From positions 1 to 32,929 of the forward strand of contig CAMDAM010000010.1 of NCBI GenBank assembly GCA_945888575.1: a stretch of DNA of 32,929 nt, written 5' to 3'. The DNA is from Asaia bogorensis. Lineage in GTDB: Bacteria; Pseudomonadota; Alphaproteobacteria; Acetobacterales; Acetobacteraceae. Both the position numbers and the translations under genes were made by a program. Below the pieces are notes generated by a model that saw only the letters and a list, made by a program, of their open reading frames with translations, was not told the origin of the DNA and made no database searches. This document shows positions 1,945 to 19,639 of the stretch, piece after piece; positions within the stretch are counted from its first letter, which is position 1; the number at the start of each line of letters is the position of its first letter.

Positions 1945-2208
1945 AAACCCCTCGACGCTTCGGCGGCGGAGAGGAAGGAAGGCCAGGGCTCTGCCCTGGA
2001 CCCGCCAGGGGGCGAGCGCCCCCTGGACCCGCGTCTACTTCCGCCTTCGGCGGGGAGGGGCCGTCCGGGCGGTTCGATCGGCCTCGATGGCCCCTCCCCG
2101 CCGAAGGCGGAACAGGTGATGGGTTCCAAGGGCCCCCGCCCTTGGTGGGGTCCAGGGGCAAAGCCCCTGGCCTTGCTTTCTCGCCCTCGCTGAAGCGCCG
2201 AAGGGTTT
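1945..2208. repeat. 264-bp nested imperfect inverted repeat, perfect 24-bp inner stem
   Basis: Inner stem TTCCGCCTTCGGCGGGGAGGGGCC (2039-2062) is the exact reverse complement of 2089-2112. Outer arms AAACCCCTCGACGCTTC (1945-1961) and GAAGCGCCGAAGGGTTT (2192-2208) pair with 2 mismatches. Two further GC-rich hairpins lie in each arm. Confidence 0.92.
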
Positions 2209-18374: not shown

Positions 18375-18418
18375 TGTTGCGCTGCAGCACCTGATGCGCT
18401 AGCACGGTGTTGGGCCAC

Positions 18419-18456
18419 GCCCCCCCACCGGGGCGCTTCTGTTCTGAAAGGGACAG
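18419..18456 (+). promoter_or_regulatory. Two-hairpin leader at serC, candidate serC RNA motif
   Basis: Hairpin 1 gcccc-cccacc-ggggc (18419-18434); hairpin 2 ctgttc-tgaaag-ggacag (18439-18456) containing the SD-like aaaggga, 4 nt before ATG 18461. Confidence 0.55.
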
Positions 18457-18460
18457 CATC

Positions 18461-19639
18461 ATGGATGCTCCCGCTGCCGCGGCACTGCCGCGCCTGCCTG
18501 CCGTTCGTCCGGCAAATCCCGATTTCTCCTCCGGCCCCTGCGCCAAGCGACCAGGCTTCTCCCTGGCCGCGCTGGAAGGCGCGCTGCTGGGCCGCAGCCA
18601 TCGCGCCAAGGCGCCGAAGGCCAAGCTCGCCGAGGTGATCGACCGCTCCAAGGCGATGCTCGGCCTGCCCGCGGATTGGCGCCTCGGCATCGTCCCGGCC
18701 AGCGACACCGGCGCCGTGGAAATGGCGCTGTGGTCCCTGCTCGGCCCACGCCCCGTCGATATCCTCGCCTTCGAGAGCTTCTCCGAGACCTGGGCCGATG
18801 ACGTGGTGAAGCAGCTTCGCCTCGCCGATGCCCGCGTGCTGAAGGCCGGCTACGGCGCGCTGCCGGATCTCGGGCAGGTGAACCCGGCGCACGACCTCGT
18901 CTTCGCCTGGAACGGCACCACCTCCGGCGTTCGGGTGCCGAACGCGGACTTCATTGCGGCGGACCGCGAGGGCTTGGTGATCTGCGATGCCACCTCCGCC
19001 GCCTTCGCCATGCGGCTGAACTGGGAAAAACTCGATGTCGTCACCTGGTCCTGGCAGAAGGTGCTGGGCGGCGAGGGGGCGCATGGCATGCTGGCGCTGT
19101 CGCCGCGCGCCGTGGCGCGGCTGGAAAGCCACACGCCGTCCTGGCCGATGCCGAAGATCTTCCGCCTCACCTCCAAGGGGAAGCTGACGGAAGGCATCTT
19201 CAAGGGCGAGACGATCAACACCCCCTCCATGCTCTGTGTGGAGGATGCGCTCGATGGCCTGCGCTGGGCCGAAGGCGCCGGCGGGCTCGATGGGCTGGTC
19301 GCGCGCAGCGAGGCCAACCTCGCCGCGGTGCGCGACTGGGTGGCGGCGAGCGAGTGGGCCGCGTTCCTGGCCGAGGATGCGGCCACCACCTCCTGCACCT
19401 CGATCTGCCTGAAGATCACCTCGCCGTGGTTCCTGGCGCTTGCGCCGGACGCACAGGCGGATGCGGCGAAGCAGATCGCGGCTTTGCTGGAGAAACAGGG
19501 CGTTGCCAATGATATCGGCGCCTATCGCGATGCCCCGCCGGGCCTGCGCATCTGGGGCGGGGCGACGGTGGAAACCAGCGACATCAAGGCGCTGCTGCCG
19601 TGGCTGGACTGGGCGTATGAGACGGTGAAGGGGGCTTGA
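18461..19639 (+). CDS. serC: Phosphoserine transaminase
   Basis: [56 protein letters not shown]; followed by serA. Confidence 0.94.

Follow-up and report, generated by a model that had tools for sequence, protein, structure and literature searches.

A dispersed REP/BIME-like palindromic element of Acetobacteraceae, its arms probably matched by copying, with a putative role at mRNA 3′ ends

REPINs depend on RAYT transposases. They are inverted REP doublets dispersed as a unit (PMC3116915), a trait shared by the palindromic element described here. REP/BIME repeats, with their GTAG and CGTC REP dimers (Di Nocera 2013, PMC3733652), are short GC-rich hairpins that occur outside genes in hundreds of copies, form head-to-head pairs, often heterodimers with structured spacers, and lie mostly in convergent or unidirectional spacers, less than 20 bp from 3′ ends, where their ends may supply stop codons; our element resembles them in all these respects. 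It differs from REP dimers in having no GTAG/CGTC tag, in its two-hairpin half-module with an AAGGCC end, and in being a composite of 190–240 bp with a very long central stem of exchangeable sequence. CGTC repeats were reported missing in Acetobacteraceae (PMC3733652), and for Lichenicola cladoniae, which is likened to our case by host family only, a RepRanger count of 1,369 REPs was reported (PMC12306157). ERIC, YPAL/RU-2, RPE and similar families (PMC2229807) are, like our element, palindromic, non-coding and intergenic, with lengths of 100–200 bp and with sites that occur both empty and filled. For YPAL, targets coincide with regions of dyad symmetry and show duplications of 3–26 bp (PMC2229807), whereas no target duplications were seen for our element; compared by description, a sequence consensus is characteristic of the ERIC/YPAL-type families, whereas our element has its core exchanged and preserves the layout alone. 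Finally, template switching homogenises the arms of inverted repeats and inverts their spacers (PMC8604942), two signatures that our element displays too, and it can maintain hairpins (PMC8794818); these papers describe the process in yeast genes and RNA genes, not as a means of maintaining a repeat dispersed in bacteria. In the open-access literature searched we found no paper with the unit sequences of the element, and none that combines Acetobacteraceae, repeat, hairpin, intergenic and terminator.

The window, that is the whole stretch of 32,929 nucleotides of Asaia bogorensis DNA that was analysed, carries around the gap of interest genes for 5-formyltetrahydrofolate cyclo-ligase, a TIGR00282 metallophosphoesterase, YebC, RuvC and RuvB, with ruvC and ruvB following yebC. 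The gap between the TIGR00282/YmdB-like gene, whose stop codon occupies 1942–1944, and yebC (1945–2224) is one nested quasi-palindrome, as the first-pass annotation had proposed: its DNA fold reaches −121.6 kcal/mol against −67.4 ± 4.2 in 200 shuffles (z = −12.9), and the RNA fold gives z = −13.1. Elsewhere in the window, a serC leader (Rfam RF00517) lies at 18408–18461 (+) with a score above the gathering threshold. The features of the locus are as follows.

1129–1944, + strand: upstream gene, TIGR00282 family metallophosphoesterase (YmdB-like), E 5.7e-74, just under the curated cut-off
1946–1970, + strand: outer arm A (inverted repeat I2), locus-specific, outside the dispersed unit and not in other copies
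1973–1982, + strand: left terminal purine tract GGAAGGAAGG, from the consensus of 208 edges
1983–1999, + strand: hairpin B, short type B1, CCAGGGC-TCT-GCCCTGG, self-complementary
2005–2026, + strand: hairpin C, CCAGGGGGC-GAGC-GCCCCCTGG, self-complementary
2039–2062, + strand: stem D, left arm, pairing perfectly with D′ and matched across its own genome
2063–2088, + strand: loop of D, occurring in both orientations among copies
2089–2112, + strand: right arm of stem D (D′), complementary to the left arm over all 24 bp
2126–2145, + strand: hairpin C′, CCAAGGGC-CCCC-GCCCTTGG, self-complementary
2152–2170, + strand: hairpin B′, long type B2, CCAGGGGC-AAA-GCCCCTGG, the sole terminator-like match in the gap
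2171–2180, + strand: right terminal pyrimidine tract CCTTGCTTTC, from the edge consensus and the terminator scan
2187–2209, + strand: outer arm A′ (inverted repeat I2), locus-specific
2225–2974, + strand: downstream gene yebC, NF001030, E 1.6e-106

Much of the earlier account of this anatomy holds, namely the perfect 24-bp stem D/D′, the self-complementarity of each of the hairpins B, C, C′ and B′, and the joining of two hairpin modules head to head; indeed, half-elements consisting of B and C only occur elsewhere in the genome. Two of its statements need refining. The outer arms exist, yet instead of 17 bp with 2 mismatches they extend over 49 nt with 82% complementarity (1940–1988/2165–2213), and of the 264-bp element the palindrome is real but only about 1973–2180 is dispersed: since related copies have only query positions ~28–236 in common, A and A′ are specific to the ymdB–yebC locus. 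The dispersed unit thus runs from GGAAGNAAGG through B, C and the stem D with its loop to C′, B′ and CCTTNCTTCC; from the outside inwards the order is GGAAGNAAGG, B, ACCCG, C, ACCC, D (~24 bp, mostly perfect) and loop, followed by the mirror image. RNAalifold places AAGGC:GCCTT, GACCC:GGGTC and D in a common trunk, from which B/B′ and C/C′ stand off as paired side hairpins. The two sides differ, a short B (B1) being paired with a long B (B2) in 94 of 104 complete elements, and the architecture is that of a head-to-head heterodimer of two-hairpin half-modules round a long central stem. Shorter forms without D are present in genome G004, and in other genera the layout is unchanged while the letters of D differ (e.g. 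AGGATTTTTCTGGAGGGGCGC in a single contig of 3.9 Mb). As a separate variant, four loci of genome G005 (L189, L192, L194 and L228) have a central palindrome of 32–33 bp with a 3-nt loop and a GGATC-nnn-GATCC centre; their outer parts differ from one another, yet pair almost perfectly. One copy (L027:3001-3313, G000:C324) has a right half that breaks off within C′ with unrelated sequence beyond, possibly an insertion or a misassembly.

The search for dispersed copies that the first-pass annotation had suggested was productive. The own genome (4.95 Mb in 504 contigs) gave 79 matches corresponding to ~40 scored copies on either strand, and the D arm, allowing up to 2 mismatches, was found there 25 times in forward and 26 times in reverse orientation, against 0 for the control. 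As in REP-like repeats generally, these are short palindromic units in many extragenic copies: 82 exact B units were counted in the own genome and 97, 92, 113, 55 and 105 in five congeners. The element is present in all eight same-genus genomes, and B units were found in 111 of 300 Acetobacteraceae genomes, covering 48 of the 102 genera sampled, with the highest count in G175 (Acetobacteraceae, 66% complete), which holds 556 exact B units in 3.4 Mb; copy numbers from draft genomes are minima, as several copies run into contig ends. None of 140 genomes of other alphaproteobacterial families contained B units, and among the genomes sampled the element was found only in Acetobacteraceae. Several contigs of G000 (e.g. 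C34, C102, C293, C379 and C414) start or end inside the element, and the palindromes probably break this draft assembly. Such contig ends, together with the fragmentation of most genomes, might suggest an artefact of short-read metagenome binning and assembly; this is scarcely credible, given that the same architecture is seen in the 3.9-Mb contig and in other well-assembled genomes, that orthologous copies recur in independent assemblies, and that the reversed-pattern control for B was 0 everywhere.

Orthologous sites differ in whether and how they are filled. Both empty and filled sites, which the first-pass annotation had proposed to look for, were found: G003 is empty at the L203 site, G008 and G004 at the L103 site, and the ymdB–yebC gap measures just 28–29 nt in two relatives (L119 and L121). 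As more than half of the sampled genera are without the element and relatives live with empty sites, it is dispensable. At the L189 site, the element of G005 stands directly behind a TGA, and in G000 an ordinary GC hairpin followed by GTTTCCC stands directly behind the same TGA, with the two flanks 4.8 kb apart. Filled sites vary as well. The outer B–C order is reversed between species at six sites with flanks that are ~90–98% identical (yebC in the window versus L091, L016/L217, L018/L097, L025/L275, L023/L196 and L022/L103), and at five of the six the outer reversal occurs without reversal of the loop; here the unique flank/B junctions lie within short-read reach, while the inner loop orientations are less certain and may be partly misassembled, the majority of genomes being short-read MAGs. 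In the pair L019/L228, the flanks, B and C are in common and the D stems are wholly different. The ymdB–yebC copy is itself conserved at its site within the genus, and G003 and two other genera carry there different D stems within the same frame.

How might such an element move? A MITE mobilised by some transposase with specificity for the GGAAGNAAG/CTTNCTTCC ends, and perhaps for a hairpin too, that leaves the inside free to vary, would account for the empty and filled sites, for terminal inverted repeats (GGAAGNAAGG/CCTTNCTTCC) whose ends recur in a second, unrelated family (see below), and for the high copy number in genomes such as G175. We nevertheless consider it improbable. No target-site duplication is visible at the two empty sites looked at closely, where the empty relatives have diverged. 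Y1_Tnp searches were negative in four of six element-rich genomes, with one match each in G001 and G005, which speaks against RAYT-driven mobility and sets the element apart from REPINs; nor was a longer copy with a gene between the D arms found in the own genome, where the solo B modules looked at were half-elements. Phage records contained no match to the element and plasmids one weak match. Since neither a duplication nor a transposase was found, we do not file the element as a MITE. Of the suggestion that it is of MITE/REP type, the REP part therefore stands, carried by the copies within and beyond the own genome and by the empty and filled sites, and the strict MITE part is not established. 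Independently of this, the B1 unit was found in 12 viral contigs.

Assignment to a described REP class was also considered. GTAG REP/REPIN was rejected, as there is no unpaired GTAG tag and the alignment shows AAGG and ACCC on either side of B, and so was CGTC REP (CGTC end, 8–9 bp stem, CCA tail), a tag that B and C are without. Likeness to CGTC REPs is confined to small inserts within a few copies, CGTC-GC hairpins of ~23 bp lying within hairpin B or C′ (L014:823-1013, L191:8358-8572, L269:426-641 and L099:3007-3224).

In an alignment of 42 copies, 99.1% of cells are paired, 23 pairs show two-sided change, and cells changed on both sides outnumber those changed on one side by 157:3, where each cell stands for a sequence and not for an event, and the structure was taken from this same alignment. 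None of 500 shuffles reached the observed covariation, which drops sharply when the alignment is slid by one column, and this agrees with the earlier proposal that structure is maintained. The covariation fits a conserved structured RNA, but copying between arms at the DNA level can give the same signal. Between the near-identical copies L339 and L344, and between the orthologues L282 and L284, most differences fall within D and are mirrored on both arms, and in near-identical copies the D arms change faster than the adjoining linkers; L024 has the same C type on both sides. Among distinct arm pairs, D mismatches comprise 7 G-U, 8 A-C and 11 others, and as there is no G-U excess, selection at the RNA level on D is not supported (the corresponding counts for B and C are biased by the hairpin finder). 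Homogenised arms and flipped spacers are what template switching does, while selection on structure may act too; mutation bias alone could keep the arms matched. We propose that the arms would be re-copied from each other by replication template switching at the inverted repeats, or alternatively from other copies by ectopic conversion; either route would change both sides together and let the spacer flip.

The same data lend themselves to another reading, in which the element is functionless palindromic DNA, either selfish or neutral, that persists where it does least harm, behind stop codons, its perfect arms being a by-product of template switching and inter-copy conversion. Patchy presence with empty sites, two-sided changes with almost no one-sided intermediates, D arms that outpace their linkers and the missing G-U preference in D are all in line with it. 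Retention of the ymdB–yebC copy across one genus and two further genera, with D wholly replaced, is less easily explained in this way, and the position relative to genes is a further difficulty. Across 52 stop-side edges, the median distance between element and stop codon is 7 nt. Several copies supply, with the AA of their AAGG end, the last two letters of a TAA stop (offset −2), and 17 of 19 half-modules have the AAGG end facing the stop codon. Of 39 elements none lies between divergent genes (p = 1e-5 when intergenic bases are the reference, 2e-4 when spacers are counted) and 13 lie between convergent genes against a background of 10% (p = 6e-5), figures that rest on six-frame codon model gene calls in the fetched loci of two genomes, with a background drawn from the same loci and approximate start codons. 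Placement at 3′ ends in convergent or unidirectional spacers is that of REP-like repeats. Avoidance of harm predicts gene-free spacers generally, not by itself a median distance of 7 nt, nor a fixed orientation of half-modules to the gene. Selfish or neutral upkeep is a serious rival, one that we judge possible, if on the whole unlikely.

We favour a putative two-way 3′-end element. Read outward, each end presents a GC hairpin followed by CCTTNCTTCC, and in the 8 nt of the outward tail 78% of edges have four or more T, compared with 4% of random positions. The share with five or more falls to just 19%, a weak T tract by the standards of intrinsic terminators; the terminator scan of the gap gave one match, B′ with CCTTGCTTTC, where shuffles give 0.6. 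As the 3′-terminal part of transcripts from the upstream gene or genes, the element would form a branched rod that offers a GC hairpin and a pyrimidine tail in either direction. Such a rod could mark or protect mRNA 3′ ends and limit transcriptional read-through to the adjoining gene, which at this locus would concern the ymdB-like gene and yebC–ruv. Placement, structure and end motif are observed, and they suggest that the element probably acts at mRNA 3′ ends. The first-pass annotation had envisaged a structured RNA or strong attenuator between the two genes. A cis-regulatory RNA or attenuator dedicated to yebC is unlikely as the primary meaning and in our view highly improbable: the element does occupy all of the space before yebC, has a strong fold and is conserved here within the genus, but the same element stands behind dozens of unrelated genes, often convergent ones, where a leader role is impossible, Rfam has no match within the gap, and some relatives manage with the 28–29 nt mentioned above.

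A second family of palindromes bears on these readings. In another genus, the ymdB–yebC slot (L110, with ymdB 84% identical) is occupied by a sequence-unrelated, A+T-rich palindrome (z = −9.1), which has 108 matches in its genome and related pieces with 117 matches in G000 and 121 in G005. In G005, two different hairpins of this family stand head to head round an inner stem, near stop codons; the hairpins are CTTCTTTTTGTGAACAAAAAGAAG and GTTCTTTTTTGAAAAAAAGAAC (L110:4817-5086, G005 loci L352–L371 and L193:5057-5162). The outward motif CTTNCTTCC, which ends the element of the window (120 of 208 edges match at 8 or 9 of 9 positions), also terminates the A+T-rich family: 24 of 40 outward tails there match it equally well, compared with 0.35% of random positions. 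That an unrelated palindrome family should share both slot and ends argues against selfish or neutral upkeep. It also invites the more speculative thought, which we regard as rather doubtful, that Acetobacteraceae hold structure-defined, sequence-free elements: any insides forming the branched layout between GGAAGNAAG/CTTNCTTCC ends would do, machinery that reads shape and ends, or selection, would place them behind stops, and template switching would rewrite and flip the insides. When pairs of such ends were scanned for a third family, most of those obtained were unrelated or lay inside ORFs. One further locus of G005 (L359:2821-2983) is an imperfect inverted repeat with arms of the ACACTAAGACACAAAG type, whose purine ends are similar.

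In summary, the gap between the ymdB-like gene and yebC holds what we consider, with somewhat better than even confidence, to be one copy of a non-coding, REP/BIME-like element that is dispersed in Acetobacteraceae, has its arms matched by copying and plays a putative role at mRNA 3′ ends. From ordinary repeats one would not expect two families that are unrelated in sequence and yet similar in layout and ends. With dozens of near-identical copies that have swapped cores, flips, half-copies and empty orthologous sites, the element is a natural test bed for a REP-like role at gene ends and for whether selection or copying from one arm to the other maintains perfect hairpins.
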